From Gemmobacter aquatilis (GTDB taxonomy: Bacteria > Pseudomonadota > Alphaproteobacteria > Rhodobacterales > Rhodobacteraceae), in assembly GCF_900110025.1 (NCBI RefSeq), contig NZ_FOCE01000002.1:62001-126000 (forward strand): a stretch of 64,000 nucleotides of DNA, given 5' to 3'. Positions 11,552 to 22,548 of the stretch are shown in pieces. The notes below the pieces were generated by a model. That model ran no database searches. It was not told the origin of the DNA and worked only from the letters and a program-made list of their open reading frames with translations. Position numbers and translations under genes: made by a program. Position 1 is the first letter of the stretch. Every line of letters starts with the position of its first letter.

Positions 11552-14449
11552 TCATTTCACGAGCAGACGGGCCTCGTGCTTCTTCAGCGTGCGCCGCGCC
11601 GCGCCATAATTCTCGCGCCCTTCCTCGGTCTTCAGATCGGGGAACAGCTCGAAGATTTCCTGACGCTGGGCATTGCCCATGCCTTTCAGCGTATAGTCGC
11701 CGGGCTGGAAGCTTTCGGTCCAGGCACCATTCGACAACACGACCTCGTGGCGGTCGAACATGAAGTGGATATAGGTGGTGCCCATGCTGTCCACCTCATG
11801 CACGCCCTTGCCCGCAATCAGGTGCTTGGCCGCGACCAGCACTTCATGCTCGTCGAAGTAAAGCGCCGTGCGGTCATTGGCCACCAGCACGCGGTGGTTG
11901 GGCGACACCATCATGTCCCGCTCCGGCAAACCGTTGCCAAGGCTGCCGCGACGGATCAGCACCGGCTTCAGATGCGGGTTCAGCGACAGATCCTGCCAAC
12001 CCATCTTCTTGGCACCGACCCAGCGGATCGGCTGGATGCCATTGTCGCGGGTGATCACCCGGTCGCCGGCTTTCAGCTCTTCCACCGGCACTTCACCGCG
12101 CGGCGTCGCGATCAGCGTGCCGGGGGTGAAGCAGGGCACGATATCCTCGATATTGGTGAAGGTCAGCCCGCCGGTGACGTTGCCGTCACTGTCGAGGAAT
12201 TCCACCCGGCCATCAAAGCCGTTGCCGTCACTGTCGGTCACCCGGTCCACGATGCGGAACTCGCCCGAACCGGTCAGATCCAGCGTATCCCAGTCGGTCC
12301 CACCGGCACCGCCATCCACCACATCGCCATCGCCATCGGTGGCGCTGGTCACGAAGAACGTGTCCTGATCGTCGCCGCCCGACAGGCTGTCATCGCCATG
12401 GCCGCCGGTGATCAGATCGCGGCCTTCGTCGCCCGAGATCGTATCGTTGTCGATTCCGCCGTCGATCACATCGTTATTGGTGCCGCCATAGATCACATCG
12501 GCGTCGTCCATACCGAAGATCGTGTCATTACCCTCGCCGCCCATGATGGTGTCATCAGCATTGTCGGGGCGCAGATCGGTTTCGTCGGGGATGTTCAGCT
12601 CGTCCGGGGCGCTGGCATCATAGCCGCCGAAGATCACGTCATGGTCATTGCCGCCGTCGATCAGATCGGCCCCTTCGCCGCCCACGATCGTATCGCCACC
12701 CTGACCGCCCATCAGCGTGTCATCATCCAGCCCGCCATCGACCAGATCCCGGCCCGAGCCGCCATAAACCACATCCGCGTCGTCGCCGGTGCGGATCGTG
12801 TCATGGCCGATGCCGCCATAGACGGTATCCAGATCGTCGGTCGGGTCGCTGTCAGCCGGGTAAAGGCCCGGATAGTCGCGGTCAGGAAGCTGATAGCCCG
12901 GCGCATCGCTGTCGATCACATCATCGCCGATGCCGCCATAAACGAGGTCGCTGCCCTCGCCGGTGGTGACCGTGTCATTGCCATAGCCGCCGCCAACCGA
13001 GTCATTGCCCGCATCGGTATAGACCAGATCATTGCCCGAGCCCGCATTGACGGTATCGTCGCCCGCCCCGGCATAAACCGTGTCGTCGCCATCGAAGGCG
13101 CGCACGAAATCGTCGTCGCCCACGGCACCCGGCAGCAGCGCGTCATTGGCGTCCACCATGTCGCCATCCGGGTCGCCGGTATAGGCCACGTCGATCAGAT
13201 CGCCGCCCGCCGTGCCATCCACATAGCCATCGCGCACAGGCCCATCACCCACGGTCACCGTAACAGTGGCGGTATCGGTGCCGCCATTGCCATCGGTCAC
13301 CTCGTAGGTGATCGTCGCGTCACCCGAGAACCCGTCATTCGGGGTGAAGGTGATCGTGCCATCGCCGTTCACTGTAACCGAGCCATCTGCCGAAACCGGC
13401 GTGCCGAGAATCGACAGCGTGTCGCCATCCACATCGGTGTCATTGCCCAGCACATTGACGGTGACTGCCGTCTGGAAGTCGGTCGAGCCGATGTCGTCAT
13501 TGGCCACCGGATCGTCATTCACCGGGTTCACCGTCACCGTGACCGTCGAGGTGGAGGTGTTCCCCCCCGGATCGGAAACCGTGTAGGTGATGGTGTCGGG
13601 GCCGTTGTAATTCTCGTTCGGCGTGTAGGTGACAGAGCCATCGTCATTGATGGTCACCGTACCGTTTTCCGCCGTCGCCGTGGTCACGGTCAGCGGGTCG
13701 CCTGCGGGATCGGTGTCATTGTCCAGCACCGGAATGGTGACCGGGGTATCCTCGTCCGTCACCGCATCGTCAGGATTGGCGGTCGGGTCTTCGTCGCAGA
13801 CCGGCGGATTGTCCACCGTATCGGACAGCGAGAAATAATCGACAGTGCCCGCGAAATGGCTGTCAATATTGTTCAGCGCGTCGGGCGAGGCGGTCGATTG
13901 GCCGGCGCCCACGATCCAGTTCTTGTTCATGCCGGCACTAGTCTGATCCATCGTCAGACCGGCCGGGGTATCGGCGGTTTCGCTGGTGCCGGTGGTGGCG
14001 TTTTCCAGCAGGATATGGCCGCCGCTGGTCTCGTCCCAGGAATAGCTGACCTTCACGTCTTCGCCGACACCGGCAAAGCCTGCGGCGCTGTTATAGGTGA
14101 AGGTGCCGCCTGCGGCGCTTTCATGGGTGATCTGCAGCGAGCCATCGGCCAGACGCTCGATCCGGAAACCGCCATCGGTTTCGCCGGCGCTGTCCCGCGA
14201 CAGCACGGTCTGCGTGTCGTCGCTGCCGGACGCGGCGGTGTTGAACTTGATCTCCAGCGTACCGCGATCCATCTGGAACACGTCATTGTTGAAGATCTTC
14301 ACCGCGTCATCGACGCCATCCAGCACGGCATTCACTCCGTCCGACACGGCGCCGTTGTAATAAAGCCCATTCTGCGCACCGTTTCCGAGCGCCGAGTCTT
14401 CGGCGATGGTCCCGGAATCGTCCAGGTTGTAGAATGCGATAACCGGCAT
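11552..14449 (-). CDS. Multidomain RTX adhesin-like protein with LamG-like, cadherin-like and C-terminal Hint domains
   Basis: A 965-residue acidic protein without a Sec signal, starting MPVIAFYNLDDSGTIAEDSA. Residues about 1-215 resemble a concanavalin/LamG fold (GTLEIKFNTAAS, GGHILLENATTG). Two tandem cadherin/Big_9-like units of about 90 residues follow (VTDEDTPVTIPVLDNDTDPAGDPL and a second VNVLGNDTDVDGDTLS unit). A long RTX block then carries GGIGxDxIxxGDDADVVYGG-type repeats. From residue 771, VPCFTPGTLIATPRG opens a Hint_2 domain with Cys773 and VSPNHRVLV as block B; it runs to the end (KHEARLLVK). The Hint domain is closely similar to that of the neighbouring RTX protein. Type I secretion and calcium-dependent folding are inferred. 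The long antisense frame here is a shadow. Confidence 0.88.
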   Translation of the reverse strand: MPVIAFYNLDDSGTIAEDSALGNGAQNGLYYNGAVSDGVNAVLDGVDDAVKIFNNDVFQMDRGTLEIKFNTAASGSDDTQTVLSRDSAGETDGGFRIERLADGSLQITHESAAGGTFTYNSAAGFAGVGEDVKVSYSWDETSGGHILLENATTGTSETADTPAGLTMDQTSAGMNKNWIVGAGQSTASPDALNNIDSHFAGTVDYFSLSDTVDNPPVCDEDPTANPDDAVTDEDTPVTIPVLDNDTDPAGDPLTVTTATAENGTVTINDDGSVTYTPNENYNGPDTITYTVSDPGGNTSTSTVTVTVNPVNDDPVANDDIGSTDFQTAVTVNVLGNDTDVDGDTLSILGTPVSADGSVTVNGDGTITFTPNDGFSGDATITYEVTDGNGGTDTATVTVTVGDGPVRDGYVDGTAGGDLIDVAYTGDPDGDMVDANDALLPGAVGDDDFVRAFDGDDTVYAGAGDDTVNAGSGNDLVYTDAGNDSVGGGYGNDTVTTGEGSDLVYGGIGDDVIDSDAPGYQLPDRDYPGLYPADSDPTDDLDTVYGGIGHDTIRTGDDADVVYGGSGRDLVDGGLDDDTLMGGQGGDTIVGGEGADLIDGGNDHDVIFGGYDASAPDELNIPDETDLRPDNADDTIMGGEGNDTIFGMDDADVIYGGTNNDVIDGGIDNDTISGDEGRDLITGGHGDDSLSGGDDQDTFFVTSATDGDGDVVDGGAGGTDWDTLDLTGSGEFRIVDRVTDSDGNGFDGRVEFLDSDGNVTGGLTFTNIEDIVPCFTPGTLIATPRGEVPVEELKAGDRVITRDNGIQPIRWVGAKKMGWQDLSLNPHLKPVLIRRGSLGNGLPERDMMVSPNHRVLVANDRTALYFDEHEVLVAAKHLIAGKGVHEVDSMGTTYIHFMFDRHEVVLSNGAWTESFQPGDYTLKGMGNAQRQEIFELFPDLKTEEGRENYGAARRTLKKHEARLLVK

Positions 14450-15361: not shown

Positions 15362-16204
15362 TCAGAGTTTGCGCGCTGCGAAAGTATCGCACTGATCCAG
15401 GTTGCCGGTCTTGTAACCGCGCAGGAACCAGCGCGCCCGCTGGTCCGATGTGCCATGGGTAAAGGTATGCGGCATCGGCGTGCGCCCGGCATTGCGTTGC
15501 AGCGTGTCGTCGCCGATGCGATGGGCGGCGTTCACCGCCTCCTCCACATCCCCCGCCTCCAGCGTGCCAAAGCGCGCGTCGGCCTCGCGCGCCCAGATGC
15601 CCGACAGGCAATCGGCCTGCAGCTCGATTCGCACGGAAATCGCGTTGCTGTCGGCCTCGCTGGCGCGTTGGCGCACCTCGTTTGCCTGGCCGAGGATGCC
15701 CAGCTCGTCCTGCACATGATGGGCCACCTCATGCGCCACGACATAGGCGGCGGCGAAATCGCCGCCTGCCCCCAGCTCGCGCGACATGGTGGTGAAAAAA
15801 TCGGTGTCGAGATAGATTTTCTGGTCGTTCGGGCAATAGAACGGCCCGGTCGCCCCGCTGGCCCCGCCGCAGGGCGATTGCGTCACACCTTTATACAGCA
15901 CCAGAACCGGGGGCTGATAGGGTTGGCCGATCTGTTCGGGGAAGACATGGCCCCAGACCTCTTCGGTATCGGCCAGCGTAACCGAAACAAACTGCCCCGC
16001 CTGTTCATCCGCCGCTGTCAGCTCGGTCTGGCTGCCGCTGCCGGTGCTGGTCCCCTCCAGCAAGGGGGTCACGTCGATGCCGAGGAAATAGCCGATGATC
16101 ACCACCGCCAGCACGCCGACCCCGCCGATCGCGCCGCCGCCGCTGATTCCGGCGCGGCGCCGGTCCTCGATGTTGCCGCTTCCGCGACGGCCCTTCCACT
16201 GCAT
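15362..16204 (-). CDS. ypfJ: Neutral zinc metallopeptidase, YpfJ family
   Basis: A 280-residue predicted membrane-anchored zinc peptidase. It starts MQWKGRRGSGNIEDRRR, the hallmark of the family, followed by a glycine-rich hydrophobic segment (GGGAIGGVGVLAVVIIGYFLG) that acts as an N-terminal membrane anchor. The zinc motif is AHEVAHHVQDELG, preceded by the conserved YCPNDQKIYLDTDFF. Residues 260-280 include FTHGTSDQRARWFLRGY, also conserved in the family. I chose the ATG at 16204 rather than upstream starts because the MQWKGRR start is invariant in the family. Physiological substrates are not known. Confidence 0.9.
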   Translation of the reverse strand: MQWKGRRGSGNIEDRRRAGISGGGAIGGVGVLAVVIIGYFLGIDVTPLLEGTSTGSGSQTELTAADEQAGQFVSVTLADTEEVWGHVFPEQIGQPYQPPVLVLYKGVTQSPCGGASGATGPFYCPNDQKIYLDTDFFTTMSRELGAGGDFAAAYVVAHEVAHHVQDELGILGQANEVRQRASEADSNAISVRIELQADCLSGIWAREADARFGTLEAGDVEEAVNAAHRIGDDTLQRNAGRTPMPHTFTHGTSDQRARWFLRGYKTGNLDQCDTFAARKL

Positions 16205-16344
16205 GATCGCCCCCCTTACCGGATACCCACGCACCGAGCCTAGCCGCTACCGCCCATTGCGGGAAGCCCCGGCCTGACCTGCGCCACGGCCTTGACCTTG
16301 CACGCGCCACATGATGCAAGCAGCCAACGCAAGAGGTGCCCAAA

Positions 16345-18703: not shown

Positions 18704-19060
18704 ATGAAGGATATGGAAATTCCACCGATGGACCTGCAGCTTCCCCCCCGTGTGACCGACCGTGCCTTTGCCCGGCTGGCCGAGATTGCCGAAATGACTG
18801 GTGAACAGAAGGCCCTGCGCGTCGCGGTCGAAGGCGGCGGCTGTTCCGGCTTTCAGTATGACATAAAGCTGGACGATCCGGCAGGCGATGATCTGGTGCT
18901 GGAAAAGGGCGGACAGAAGGTTCTGGTCGATCCGGTGTCCCTGCCCTTCCTGTCCAACGCGGTGATCGATTTCACCGAAGAGCTGATCGGCGCGCGCTTC
19001 GTGATCGAAAACCCGAATGCCAGTTCAAGCTGCGGCTGCGGCACATCTTTTTCGATGTGA
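18704..19060 (+). CDS. erpA: Iron-sulfur cluster insertion protein, ErpA/IscA family
   Basis: A 118-residue A-type carrier that hands Fe-S clusters to apoproteins. The three conserved cysteines are Cys47 (VEGGGCSGFQYD) and Cys110 and Cys112 (SSSCGCGTSFSM). The N-terminal part (RVTDRAFARLAEIAEM) is the usual helix. The start is uncertain: ATG 18704 would give an almost leaderless transcript from the candidate promoter, while ATG 18728 (MDLQLPPRV) gives the more usual family length of about 110. It works upstream or in parallel with the suf system at 57686-64000. Confidence 0.9.
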   Translation: MKDMEIPPMDLQLPPRVTDRAFARLAEIAEMTGEQKALRVAVEGGGCSGFQYDIKLDDPAGDDLVLEKGGQKVLVDPVSLPFLSNAVIDFTEELIGARFVIENPNASSSCGCGTSFSM

Positions 19061-19951
19061 TCAGCGCGCCGCAGCGCGCTGAGCGTTCACCAGCCAGATG
19101 CCCGAGCCGATCACCAGGGCCGAGCCGAGCCAGACATGGGCGCCCGTCACCTCGCCGAACAGGCTTTGGCCGAGGATCACCATCCAGATGAACTGCACAT
19201 TGGCCAGTTGCAGCACGACATAGGCGGGCAGCAGCCGCACGATCACCACCATCAGCCAGCGGGTGGCGATCAGGAACAGCGTATAGAGCGCGATCAGGCC
19301 AAGATCGGCGGCGGCCATGGGTTGCCAGACCAGCGGTGCCAAAGCCAGACCGAGGATCAGGCAAGCCAGTTGCGCATAGAACACCTGCGCCATGGAATGG
19401 GTATGGCTGCGGCAGATCCGCCGTGACAGCACGATGGACCCCGCGCCGGTGGCACTGGCGGCCAGCCCGATCCAATGGCCAAGGCCGATGGTGGCCAGCC
19501 CGCCGGGCAGCAGATACACCATGCCCAGCAGCCCGACCGCCAGCGCCAGCCAGACCGCGCGGCTGATCCGCTCGTTCAGGAACAAGCCGGACAGCAGCGC
19601 ACCGAAGATCGGCATGATGGCGATGAAGACAAACACCTCGGCAAAGGGCAGATAACGCAGGGCGTAGAAGAAACAGGTGGTGCTGACAGCCCCCAGCGCC
19701 GAACGCAGCGCCAGCAGCCGCGGTGCGCCGGTGTGCAGCACGCGCGCCTGCTGCCCCATCGCGGCGGCCAGCAGGCCCAGCCCCACCGCAATCGCCCCGG
19801 CCACCGCCATCAGTTGCGGCGCGGCATAGCTGGCGATCAGATCCTTTGCGATCGCATCGGCGCTGACAGAAACCAGCGTGTTCAGAAGGGTCAGCCCCGC
19901 GCCCAGCAGGGCGGCGCGTTGCAGCGGAACCGCGCCGGAAACCGCGGTCAT
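19061..19951 (-). CDS. EamA/DMT family transporter (probable exporter)
   Basis: A 296-residue, ten-helix drug/metabolite transporter made of two EamA halves. The first half includes LFYALRYLPFAEVFVFIAIMPIF-type text, the classical EamA motif (here FFYALRYLPFAEV), with GALLSGLFLNERISR after it. The second half ends in PAYVVLQLANVQFIWMVILG and GSALVIGSGIWLV. Family members export amino acids and other small molecules, but the substrate cannot be read. The start codon overlaps the stop of the preceding gene (ATGA), so it is translationally coupled to the unknown 367-residue protein and hence to the LMPCSN peptide gene. Confidence 0.85.
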   Translation of the reverse strand: MTAVSGAVPLQRAALLGAGLTLLNTLVSVSADAIAKDLIASYAAPQLMAVAGAIAVGLGLLAAAMGQQARVLHTGAPRLLALRSALGAVSTTCFFYALRYLPFAEVFVFIAIMPIFGALLSGLFLNERISRAVWLALAVGLLGMVYLLPGGLATIGLGHWIGLAASATGAGSIVLSRRICRSHTHSMAQVFYAQLACLILGLALAPLVWQPMAAADLGLIALYTLFLIATRWLMVVIVRLLPAYVVLQLANVQFIWMVILGQSLFGEVTGAHVWLGSALVIGSGIWLVNAQRAAAR

Positions 19952-21051
19952 GCGCCCACCCGCAGACTGTGCGGCGCGGCGCGGACCGGCGTCGAGGCAC
20001 GGGCGAATGCGGCAAAGAATGTTTCGAATCCCGGGCTGTCGGCAGCGCCCTGATCGGCAAGTTCCAAGGCGCGCCCGGACAGGTGAGGCGCACAGCGGAT
20101 GCGCATCTCCGGCCAGTCCGCGCTGCGCCCCTCGCCCAGTGACAGCAGCGCCTGAGACCATTCACGCAGCGGGGAAATCAGGGGTTTGTCGAGACGAATA
20201 CGCATCGGACCTGCCACAAAATGCTCACAAAACGCGGTAGCGCCATTAACCGACAACAACCACTGATTGACAAGATAATTATGGTAGGCATCCGAGGAAT
20301 CCTCGCAGGCGCCCCGCTCCACCCGGAAGGCCGATGCCTCGGCCTCGCAGAAGGCGCGCCACGATGCAGGTTGCGGTTGGCCGGTGAAGCGCAGGGCAAG
20401 GCAGACCTCGGCCAGCAGATCGCCGTTCTGTTCCAGATGCGCAAGGCAGCCCAGATGCAGCAGCGACAGGCGCGCCGGTTCCGGCAGGTCCAGCGGGCGC
20501 TGGCCATAATGGCTCAGATAGAAGATCACATGCAGCAGATCATAAGCGGCGCGCGGGTTGGGCAGGGCAAACACCGCCGGGCGCGACAGGAAGCGCATCA
20601 ACCGTGCATCCAGCCCCGGCTCGTCGATCACTTGCCCGGCGCGGGCCAGCAGATAGCGCGTCTCGGCGCGCTGCAGGTCGTTCACCTCTGACTCGGGCCA
20701 GCCCTGCGCCACGATCCATGCGGCCAGCGCGGCGGATTTGCCGCCCGCAAGTCCCAGCGTTTCCAGCGAAAGCGTCAGGCCCAGCAGCATCCGGTAATAT
20801 TGCGGGTAGAAGGCGATCTGCGTTTCGATCGCGTCATGGAACGGCTGATAGACCGCCAGCGCCAGATCGGGCAGCCGCGTGCCACAGGCCGCAAGAATGC
20901 CCAGCAGTTCGGCGTTTTCCTTCAGCCAGAAGGCGTCGCCCTCGCGGCGGCGGTGCTGCGCAAAGCTGGTCAGCAGCGGCGCGAGTGCCCCCGGCGCCTG
21001 CGCGGCGCGGGGGGAACGGGTATGGGTGGCAAACCGGACCACGTTGGACAT
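19948..21051 (-). CDS. Uncharacterised helical protein in the LMPCSN-peptide operon
   Basis: A 367-residue soluble protein that I cannot assign to a characterised family. It begins MSNVVRFATHTRSPRAAQ and is almost entirely alpha-helical in appearance. Notable conserved-looking segments are GDAFWLKENAELLGILAACG (residues 38-57), FYPQYYRMLLGLTLSLETLG (81-100), YDLLHVIFYLSHYG (170-183), HLGCLAHLEQNGDLLAEVCLAL (199-220, shown in part) and DAYHNYLVNQWLLS. The spaced His/Tyr residues suggest an alpha/alpha-type helical bundle, possibly enzymatic, but this is inference. It lies between the repeat-peptide gene and the EamA transporter, transcribed in the same direction and overlapping the latter by four bases, so a role in handling the peptide is plausible. 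Confidence 0.7.
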   Translation of the reverse strand: MSNVVRFATHTRSPRAAQAPGALAPLLTSFAQHRRREGDAFWLKENAELLGILAACGTRLPDLALAVYQPFHDAIETQIAFYPQYYRMLLGLTLSLETLGLAGGKSAALAAWIVAQGWPESEVNDLQRAETRYLLARAGQVIDEPGLDARLMRFLSRPAVFALPNPRAAYDLLHVIFYLSHYGQRPLDLPEPARLSLLHLGCLAHLEQNGDLLAEVCLALRFTGQPQPASWRAFCEAEASAFRVERGACEDSSDAYHNYLVNQWLLSVNGATAFCEHFVAGPMRIRLDKPLISPLREWSQALLSLGEGRSADWPEMRIRCAPHLSGRALELADQGAADSPGFETFFAAFARASTPVRAAPHSLRVGA

Positions 21052-21086
21052 GAAACTCTCCCTGGCCCGGCCTGATCTCCGAAAGC

Positions 21087-21122
21087 CCCCCTCCCGCGCC
21101 GGGCGTCTGGCGGTGGAGGGGG
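21087..21122 (-). terminator. Intercistronic hairpin between peptide gene and unknown 367-residue gene
   Basis: CCCCCTCC and GGAGGGGG form an 8-bp stem with a roughly 20-base loop, on the minus strand between the peptide stop (21137) and the next start (21051). A GGCTTTCGG tail follows without a real T-tract. It could act as a partial terminator or 3'-end stabiliser that makes the peptide message more abundant than its downstream genes. Confidence 0.5.
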
Positions 21123-21136
21123 TGCCTTGGGGGCGC

Positions 21137-21391
21137 TCAGTTCGAGCAGGGCATCAGCGCCACGCCGGAACCCGCCAGCATGTCATCGGCCTTGATGTTG
21201 GAGCAGGGCATCAGATCGGCGGCCACGCCGGTTTCCACGTTGGAGCAGGGCATCAGTGCCACGCCACCGCCCAGCACCATGTCGGCGCCTTCGATGTTGG
21301 AACAGGGCATCAGATCGGCGCCAAGGCCCATGGCCATGTCGGTCACGCGGAGGGTTTCGATTTCGACGGCGATTTTACGAACGGCGCTCAT
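21137..21391 (-). CDS. Small peptide with four LMPCSN repeats, RiPP-precursor-like
   Basis: An 84-residue peptide of unknown function. After about 20 leader-like residues (MSAVRKIAVEIETLRVTDMA) come four repeats of 14-19 residues. Each ends in the identical hexapeptide LMPCSN at residues 27-32, 46-51, 60-65 and 79-84, the last being the exact C-terminus. The spacers alternate between GADLMPCSNIE- and GGGVALMPCSNVE-like forms, so the unit is probably a duplicated pair. The only cysteines are the four in the repeats. An AAGGAG ribosome site sits 7 bases before ATG 21391. The form (leader plus repeated Cys-containing cores, followed by an unknown protein and an exporter) resembles multi-core RiPP precursors. 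Metal binding or a structural role is the alternative. Confidence 0.8.
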   Translation of the reverse strand: MSAVRKIAVEIETLRVTDMAMGLGADLMPCSNIEGADMVLGGGVALMPCSNVETGVAADLMPCSNIKADDMLAGSGVALMPCSN

Positions 21392-21486
21392 GGCGATCTC
21401 CTTGAATGAGCAGTTTCTGCCCCTTCACGGTTGCGCCATCTGATTGATTTTTCAAACGTTTTTACATCCACAGGTTGTGAGATGCC

Positions 21487-21638: not shown

Positions 21639-21738
21639 GTCAGGCCATTTCTTGGCCCGGCCTTGCCATGGCAAGCGGCGCTTGCGATAGGTTGTGACCA
21701 CGGCCCCATTCGGGCCGCATGCCAGCCCCGGAGACGCC

Positions 21739-22548
21739 ATGAAACTCGCCACCTTCAACATCAACGGCATCAAGGCCCGGATCGACGCCCTGCCCCGCTG
21801 GCTGGAAATCGCGCGCCCCGATGTGGTGGCGCTGCAGGAAATCAAATCGGTGGACGAGGCCTTTCCCCGCGCGCTGTTCGAGGATCTGGGCTACCGGGTG
21901 GAAACCCACGGGCAAAAGGGCTTCAACGGCGTGGCGATCCTGTCGCGCCTGCCGCTGGAGGATGTGACGCGCGGCCTTCCCGGTGATGACAGCGACGAAC
22001 AGGCCCGCTGGATTGAGGCGACCGTGCTGGGCGACAAGCATCCGCTGCGGCTGTGCGGGCTGTATCTGCCGAATGGCAACCCGGTCACCTTCGACGCCGA
22101 GGGGCGGCCCGAAGCGACCGGAAAATACGGCTACAAGCTGGGCTGGATGGAGCGGATGCGCGCCCGCGCCGCCGAGTTGTTGACCAGCGAGGAACGCGTT
22201 GTGCTGGCGGGCGATTACAACATCATCCCGCAGGCCGAAGACGCCGCCCGGCCAGAGGTCTGGGCGCAGGACGCGCTGTTCCTGCCCGAAAGCCGCGCCG
22301 CCTTTCGCCGCATCCTGAACCTTGGCTATACCGAGGCGTTCCGCGCCTGCACGCAGGGGCCGGGGCATTACAGCTTCTGGGATTATCAGGCCGGCGCCTG
22401 GGACAAGAACAACGGCATCCGCATCGACCATCTGTTGCTGAGCCCGCAAGCCGCCGATCTGCTGCAAGACTGCCGCATCGAACGCGAGGTGCGCGCGGGC
22501 GACAAGCCGTCGGATCACGTGCCGGTCTGGATCGAACTCGACGCCTGA
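21739..22548 (+). CDS. xth: Exodeoxyribonuclease III (AP endonuclease)
   Basis: A 269-residue Mg-dependent AP endonuclease/3'-exonuclease for base excision repair. The start MKLATFNINGIKARIDALP is the usual N-terminus. LQEIKSVDEAFP carries the catalytic Glu, GDYNIIPQAED the Asp/Asn pair, RIDHLLLSP the Asp-His and SDHVPVW the final catalytic His. I chose ATG 21739 over an in-frame upstream start because the family begins within a few residues of KLATFN. It ends six bases from the convergent monooxygenase gene. Confidence 0.93.
   Translation: MKLATFNINGIKARIDALPRWLEIARPDVVALQEIKSVDEAFPRALFEDLGYRVETHGQKGFNGVAILSRLPLEDVTRGLPGDDSDEQARWIEATVLGDKHPLRLCGLYLPNGNPVTFDAEGRPEATGKYGYKLGWMERMRARAAELLTSEERVVLAGDYNIIPQAEDAARPEVWAQDALFLPESRAAFRRILNLGYTEAFRACTQGPGHYSFWDYQAGAWDKNNGIRIDHLLLSPQAADLLQDCRIEREVRAGDKPSDHVPVWIELDA

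Follow-up and report, generated by a model that had tools for sequence, protein, structure and literature searches.

Which product could be made from a small gene that encodes the same hexapeptide four times? This question is raised by a minus-strand three-gene cassette in a 64,000-nucleotide stretch of Gemmobacter aquatilis DNA (contig NZ_FOCE01000002.1, positions 62,001 to 126,000; hereafter the window), in which the gene for an 84-residue repeat peptide is followed by genes for a 367-residue protein of the Pfam family DUF6902 and a 296-residue EamA-type transporter. An initial annotation, made from the letters alone, had suggested a multi-core precursor of a ribosomally synthesised and post-translationally modified peptide (RiPP) accompanied by a dedicated partner protein and an exporter. 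We propose here, with about even confidence, that the cassette represents an undescribed multi-core RiPP-like family in which DUF6902 modifies the cores, most likely by L-to-D epimerisation, and the EamA protein serves as an optional exporter. The sequences themselves show a repeat architecture and cores kept identical by selection; they also show that peptide and DUF6902 are paired, that the two are absent and move together, and that DUF6902 has motifs in common with proteins of the family DUF6895. We call the family undescribed because the open-access literature, searched for DUF6902 itself and for peptide epimerases, multi-core RiPPs of Rhodobacteraceae or Roseobacter, EamA together with RiPPs, and FxSxx peptides, showed nothing on this system. 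DUF6895 was found in that literature only as a title in the reference list of PMC13352647.

The window peptide and its closest relatives

Translation of the open reading frame (ORF) agreed with the initial annotation in that the 84-residue peptide carries four identical LMPCSN hexapeptides, the last of which forms the exact C-terminus, and that its only Cys residues, four in all, fall inside these cores. When the residues of the peptide were shuffled 20,000 times, no hexamer reached four copies (two copies were seen twice and three copies once). A structural model of the window precursor, built on an alignment of 9 sequences, was disordered (pLDDT 43.9). Profile scans gave no credible match of the peptides to known peptide families. 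The L114 peptide reached the Pfam cut-offs for Palm_thioest (1.1e-06) and S1_2 (2.4e-05) with no passing stretch, and a match to Ig_like_ice stayed below its cut-off; these matches were dismissed as repeat artefacts.

The cores found in the window's genus are LMPCSN, LMPTSN, LMLCSN and LMPASN, and close relatives carry LMPTSN four times or LMPASN seven times. Because cores with Thr or Ala occur within the genus, Cys is not required in the core. The earlier suggestion of a cysteine-based or metal-binding peptide was therefore given up for the family: Thr or Ala replaces Cys in close relatives, and the modal core contains Cys in only 32 of the 135 nonredundant peptides described below. In one genome (L005/L105), three cores read LMPCSN and one of the four reads LMPASN, possibly a core change caught part-way.

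Core residues are held within each precursor

The 164 peptides recovered by an automated search (see below) were reduced to 138 by removal of the partly masked L077 and of duplicates, as judged from the last 60 residues, and to 135 by removal of three errors (L012, L052 and L092). This nonredundant set contains 957 units, with 2 to 20 units per peptide and a median of 7. The spacing between units is 20 or 21 residues in 686 of 822 cases, and spacings of 8, 13, 14 and 19 also occur. The commonest residues give the unit consensus G-[DE]-[AG]-[VT]-x-[ML]-F-[ST]-S-[GS]-x, in which the Gly at position −6 is present in 97%. The set has 47 modal five-residue cores; FSSGS is the commonest, being modal in 30 of 135 peptides from several genera. 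The final core forms the exact C-terminus in 103 of the 135.

A second unit finder, which used the flanking columns alone and left out each peptide in turn, returned 950 units, 933 of them common to the first set. In these flank-only units, identity at positions +1 to +4 was 0.95-0.98 within a peptide versus 0.31-0.63 between peptides; the corresponding values were 0.92 versus 0.71 at column 0, and 0.43-0.63 versus 0.23-0.39 at columns −5 to −1. Codons were compared in units from the anchor finder, which demands three of four identical residues and is hence biased towards identity. With this finder, 1-3% of within-peptide residue pairs differ at +1 to +4, while the codons differ in 44-53% of same-residue pairs. 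Of the 15 flanking columns, 11 show differences in 44-80% of residue pairs, and only −6 (5%), 0 (11%), +5 (36%) and +6 (21%) have lower values. That the codons have diverged while the core residues were held indicates selection on the residues and argues against simple recent duplication; the repeated product sequence is hence what selection acts on. The initial annotation had proposed to check related genomes for a constrained core with drifting spacers, and this is the pattern seen, the core being held within each peptide and most spacer positions drifting.

Between peptides the core changes as a whole. Among 134 peptides, 115 show no difference between their cores at +1 to +4. A FastTree tree of the DUF6902 proteins of these 134 (all but one of the 135), in which 53 of 131 inner branches are weakly supported, requires at least 65 changes of the modal core, as compared with a mean of 101 and a minimum of 97 in 100 label shuffles.

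The repeat peptide and DUF6902 occur as a pair

The pairing was examined in 171 loci, a partly redundant collection in which some genomes are counted twice (in the genome sample and in GTDB records). The automated search found a repeat peptide at most 500 nt upstream of DUF6902 on the same strand in 164 of them. Reading of the frames by eye added five loci (L046, L053, L072, L075 and L086), reframed two (L012 and L052) and removed one false call (L092). Thus a repeat peptide precedes DUF6902 in 168 of 171 loci, with L046 and L077 partly masked and L077 showing one unit. Every fully read peptide in this position has at least two units. In L178, the contig ends 85 nt upstream of DUF6902. True absence of the peptide is confined to L078 and L092, and only in these two loci has a full-length DUF6902 protein lost conserved residues: L078 has Arg for His174 and Ser for Asp211, and in L092 His174 is Gln, Asp211 is Leu, Glu215 is Arg and His257 is Thr. 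These four residues are otherwise intact in 172 partly redundant rows, apart from the truncated row L094. Neither peptide-less genome has an orthologue-grade EamA gene.

Of the features that define a multi-core RiPP system, an encoded precursor with core sequences and a dedicated partner gene were found here, the partner by linkage; modification of the core, the third such feature, is predicted. The initial annotation had named repeat-less homologues, or persistent separation of the peptide from the 367-residue gene, as findings that would speak against a multi-core precursor with a dedicated partner. No repeat-less homologue was seen upstream of DUF6902, stand-alone peptides elsewhere not having been searched for, and separation was limited to the two loci with altered enzymes; peptide and DUF6902 are found together in different genera, in most cases alongside EamA. 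Because the genome samples, at one genome per species, are phylogenetically dependent, these counts are not independent trials.

Distribution and movement of the cassette

DUF6902 was found in 82 of 295 sampled Rhodobacteraceae genera, in all 11 genomes searched of the window's genus (its own included) and in none of 14 control genomes. From a species-level genome collection, the best 80 of 366 stretches encoding a DUF6902 relative were kept. A class-wide sample gave a match in 4 of 240 genomes, three of them above the cut-off and all three from Rhodobacteraceae; of 321 genomes from a second class within the phylum, 3 matched, all from one genus. DUF6902 was thus seen, within the searched samples, in Rhodobacteraceae and a single genus outside their class.

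An EamA gene counted as orthologue-grade when it scored 130 bits or more. Such a gene is present in 61 of the 82 DUF6902-positive genera versus none of the 213 negative ones, whose top EamA matches fall below this score (best E 1.9e-29). Among the 21 positive genera without it, 20 of which were read, 18 retain the peptide (one partly masked) and two are the peptide-less loci; in two of the 18 (L077 and L088), a divergent EamA-like gene is in place. EamA, which the initial annotation saw as part of the system, is thus an optional, putative exporter.

In 30 DUF6902-negative genomes of at least 98% completeness, no DUF6902, EamA or credible repeat peptide was found within about 1.5 kb on either side of the Fe-S biosynthesis gene erpA. 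Both erpA and the exonuclease gene xth, which together mark the empty site, were seen in 25 of these 30. Long ORFs in L198, L199 and L201 that contain a four-residue string three times (RRGL, RSRR and GLGR) were dismissed as out-of-frame. In the genus of the other class, G859 (L233) and G1029 (L239) hold all three genes; these stand beside rpe-like genes, and the cores take the form [FLY]GCY. In G1028 the contig stops just upstream of DUF6902. Pfam confirmed DUF6902 (2.3e-102) and EamA in L233; the names rpe, transketolase and enoyl-CoA hydratase in L233 and L238-L240, and EamA in L239 and L240, were assigned by eye. Synteny within Rhodobacteraceae is strong; in L087, one locus with long flanks, xth, erpA and dgt are missing, and the peptide and EamA are nonetheless present. 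Since common descent might by itself account for synteny, we place the weight on the empty sites, on the cassette found outside the class and on the two enzymes that have decayed; judged by these, peptide, DUF6902 and EamA behave as a unit.

DUF6902 and its DUF6895 relatives

The initial annotation had described the 367-residue protein as apparently helical and uncharacterised. Modelling confirmed the former (AlphaFold model almost all helix, pLDDT 92.6, pTM 0.90). The latter stands in so far as the protein belongs to DUF6902 (PF21843, 2.1e-108), but it also matches DUF6895 (PF21836; 3.5e-18, 66.4 bits against a cut-off of 23.8) over about 200 residues. Conserved DUF6902 residues include His174, Asp211, Asp254 and His257. 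The alignment (A2) holds 72 of 80 loci: six were left out by choice (L106, L113, L139, L142, L160 and L170) and two by the script, L128 with an internal stop and L137 with masked bases, and L124 was shortened to its own stop.

We read 12 DUF6895-type proteins (L184, L185, L188, L189, two in L190, L191, L195 and L234-L237), only part of which were scanned with Pfam; L195 had entered as a sub-threshold DUF6902 match only, and the reading left aside the hits below threshold in L186, L187 and L232. Eight of the 12, L195 included, carry the motifs [TS]HxxF, D[LV]xxE and YH, as DUF6902 does. The first two motifs are present in L235 and L236; they also occur in L237, where Ala takes the place of Thr, and in variant form in L234. 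When DUF6902 was aligned with L184, the [TS]HxxF and D[LV]xxE motifs fell in register. A small ORF lies upstream in all seven DUF6895-type loci detailed (L184, L185, L188-L191 and L195), with one gene intervening in L190. Six of these seven ORFs have, by eye, the leader-like stretch L..[SA]G[LIA][IVL][DN]....L..L, and one DUF6895-linked precursor repeats a GPWYIYKE / GPWFVLKE element. No such pair was seen at L234-L237, and none of the DUF6895-linked small ORFs matched an NCBIfam profile above its cut-off. They may represent a wider DUF6895-linked peptide family. The small ORFs before L184, L185, L188, L189, L191 and L195 have variable aromatic-rich tails (GPWFVL, WDKYVLVV, WAFIVKGKF). In L190 (6718-8603, plus strand; Streptomyces fungicidicus plasmid p1), two DUF6895-type genes stand in tandem, the first with a Pfam match of 1.6e-90; a 62-residue ORF and one further gene come before them and a beta-lactamase-fold gene after. 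The L235 and L236 proteins have an apparent N-terminal membrane segment, with no small peptide gene seen adjoining.

Two observations on DUF6895 touch on chemistry. One ORF of L237 (6302-8128, minus strand) joins a DUF6895 domain (4.7e-9) to a Peptidase_M55 D-aminopeptidase (5.2e-43); it lies near an ATP-grasp gene and an 82-residue Gly/Ser-rich small ORF. A DUF6895 member is also named as a lasso-peptide epimerase in the title of Shi et al. (ACS Catal. 2026, cited in PMC13352647). MslH, another lasso-peptide epimerase, has two His/Asp catalytic pairs, acts on a ribosomal precursor and has a calcineurin-like, metal-dependent fold (PMC10406935). Because DUF6902 and DUF6895 have motifs in common, and in view of the epimerase title, the Peptidase_M55 fusion and the His/Asp pairs of MslH, we infer by analogy that L-to-D epimerisation is the most likely chemistry of DUF6902, with a confidence that at best reaches even and may fall somewhat short of it.

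A proposed pathway and the alternatives

According to our proposal, the peptide gene would give a largely unfolded precursor, in which a short, leader-like N-terminal part is followed by one core in several copies. The core, [F/M]-x1-x2-x3-x4, would sit in a semi-conserved frame with Gly six residues ahead of F/M. DUF6902 would act as the dedicated modifying enzyme for each core, most likely inverting the configuration at C-alpha (L to D) through acid-base chemistry of His and carboxylate residues. A protease encoded elsewhere may then free the cores after x4, and the EamA protein, where present, may export the small product.

Several observations count against this proposal. At least one core deviates in 19 of 134 peptides, and 21 of the 82 DUF6902 genera lack an orthologue-grade EamA gene. 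A scan of 15 window proteins revealed neither a protease nor a known RiPP enzyme in the cassette or adjoining it, and the nearest peptidase-like gene (Zn_peptidase, 15362-16234) lies about 3 kb beyond. No relative of DUF6902 in the PDB was detected by sequence (best E 0.61), and a fold search returned 316 matches at E up to 10, none at 0.001, with a TM of at most 0.37 among the best 50 of the 316 (transcobalamin). Because there is no such relative by sequence or fold, the active-site residues are putative and were assigned from conservation. The alignment with L184 reached a probability of 68% (E 4.7e-5) at 25% identity over 155 columns, and 4 of the 12 DUF6895-type proteins lack at least one motif in its strict form. 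The epimerase link of DUF6895 is known to us from the title of a paper. Finally, PF13471 (Transglut_core3, the lasso leader protease) was found in one of 14 genomes or records searched, on a different contig from its DUF6895 gene, and was absent from the window genome; lasso chemistry hence does not carry over.

One could envision that the pair is the same multi-core RiPP-like system but that DUF6902 performs other chemistry on the cores, such as proteolytic release, cyclisation or amide chemistry, the link to DUF6895 being ancestral only. We regard this as a real, if less than even, possibility. The low identity to the L184 protein would permit it, the DUF6902-linked cores, of the type F/M-[ST]-S-[GSW]-x, are unlike the sequences seen beside DUF6895 (e.g. 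GPWFVL), and in a cassette without a separate protease the enzyme itself might cut. All three motifs are, however, common to most of the DUF6895-type proteins read, and the sole functional leads found in the superfamily, one of them a paper title, point to D-residue chemistry. Alternatively, the peptide might be a structural repeat protein (solenoid, metal-binding or surface) with DUF6902 as its chaperone. The prevailing 20- or 21-residue spacing would fit a solenoid coil, but the precursor model is disordered, the copy number runs from 2 to 20 with irregular spacings, Cys is in the modal core of a minority of peptides, and the core residues are identical within a peptide while changing between peptides; we consider this reading improbable. 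More improbable still, and hardly to be entertained, is a role of the peptide as a leader ORF that regulates DUF6902 and EamA, with EamA exporting an unrelated metabolite. The peptide gene does stand first in the cassette, and the gap behind it contains a GC-rich hairpin, but this hairpin is no stronger than those of shuffled sequences (z −0.94), the peptide is retained in 18 of the 21 genera without orthologue-grade EamA, and up to 20 identical cores with diverged codons would be left unexplained.

If our proposal of an epimerised and exported product is extended, the cassette might make a new class of exported D-residue oligopeptides of about 5-6 residues that act as lineage-specific signals. 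A bacterial peptide pheromone or self-recognition signal would be expected to show this pattern, with copies that are identical within a precursor and change jointly between lineages. The occurrence of FSSGS as modal core in several genera weighs against lineage specificity, and we consider this extension doubtful.

Comparison with known systems

FxSxx-COOH cyclophane peptides (FxsA/FxsB) have a radical SAM partner at the locus. Many DUF6902-linked peptides likewise end in F-[ST]-S-x-x (FSSGS, FTSGS), unlike the window's own core, LMPCSN. Although many C-termini fit, membership was ruled out by the TIGR04268 profile, which did not match the window peptide and gave, among 10 relatives, a single weak match of 7.2 bits, the cut-off being 28. 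In bufferins and other MNIO (DUF692) peptides, a core Cys goes together with an MNIO enzyme encoded at the locus. No radical SAM or MNIO match was found in the 15 window proteins scanned from the locus and its flanks; together with the small share of modal cores that contain Cys, this led us to set a bufferin-type assignment aside.

Cyanobactins have several cores per precursor and one processing enzyme. The same holds for microviridins (PMC5934393). DUF6902-linked precursors are multi-core as well; they differ from both in that no ATP-grasp or YcaO match was found among the 15 window proteins and in that one short core is repeated many times (median 7, up to 20). With regard to MslH, the DUF6902 residues His174, Asp211, Asp254 and His257 could serve in a way similar to its catalytic pairs, but DUF6902 is modelled almost all helix, in contrast to the calcineurin-like metal-dependent fold. 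The DUF6895 lasso epimerase, known by title, is closest: DUF6902 matches the DUF6895 profile, has motifs in common with 8 of 12 proteins, and small ORFs lie upstream at DUF6895 loci. It differs in that DUF6902 is a Pfam family of its own and has multi-core precursors alongside. A lasso system was ruled out for the window on the single feature tested, the absence of a PF13471 match in its genome.

DUF6902 thus appears to mark an undescribed RiPP-like family in more than a quarter of the sampled Rhodobacteraceae genera. The precursor lets core selection be read directly, with residues held and codons free, and the 47 modal cores are a ready set for testing DUF6902 action. If DUF6902 is indeed an epimerase, chemistry of the DUF6895 type would reach beyond lasso peptides and take in multi-core precursors as well. 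Since all cores of a precursor change jointly, it can also be tested whether they serve as a peptide signal.

Layout of the locus and neighbouring genes

The features of the locus are listed in Table 1. The gene order given in the initial annotation was correct, as seen from the coordinates and the Pfam match of the transporter. The peptide gene and the DUF6902 gene are separated by 85 bp, and the EamA start overlaps the end of the DUF6902 gene through an ATGA. The cassette is bracketed by plus-strand genes, of the xth type on one side and the erpA type on the other. Promoter and terminator scans of the locus gave nothing above chance.

Table 1. Features of the cassette and its flanks (window coordinates)
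Feature	Position	Strand	Basis
Multi-core precursor peptide, 84 aa; leader-like N-terminus MSAVRK... (residues 1-26) and four LMPCSN	21137..21391	-	ORF translation
Core 1, LMPCSN (residues 27-32)	21296..21313	-	
Core 2, LMPCSN (residues 46-51)	21239..21256	-	
Core 3, LMPCSN (residues 60-65)	21197..21214	-	
Core 4, LMPCSN (residues 79-84, exact C-terminus)	21140..21157	-	
Shine-Dalgarno-like AAGGAG ahead of peptide gene	21398..21403	-	Read from sequence
DUF6902 protein, 367 aa; putative peptide-modifying enzyme, DUF6895 relative	19948..21051	-	Pfam PF21843, PF21836; AlphaFold
DUF6902 His174 codon; His of the relatives' [TS]HxxF motif (LHVIF in the window)	20530..20532	-	
DUF6902 Asp211-Glu215 codons, motif DLxxE	20407..20421	-	
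DUF6902 Tyr256-His257 codons, motif YH	20281..20286	-	
EamA (DMT) transporter, 296 aa; optional, putative exporter	19061..19951	-	Pfam PF00892, 9.1e-14
Exonuclease III-type (xth) gene; conserved flank outside the system	21694..22548	+	Pfam Exo_endo_phos
erpA-type Fe-S biosynthesis gene; conserved flank outside the system	18704..19060	+	Pfam Fe-S_biosyn

Elsewhere in the window, positions 11552-14449 (minus strand) encode a 965-residue RTX/cadherin-like protein with a C-terminal Hint domain (Pfam Hint_2, HemolysinCabind).

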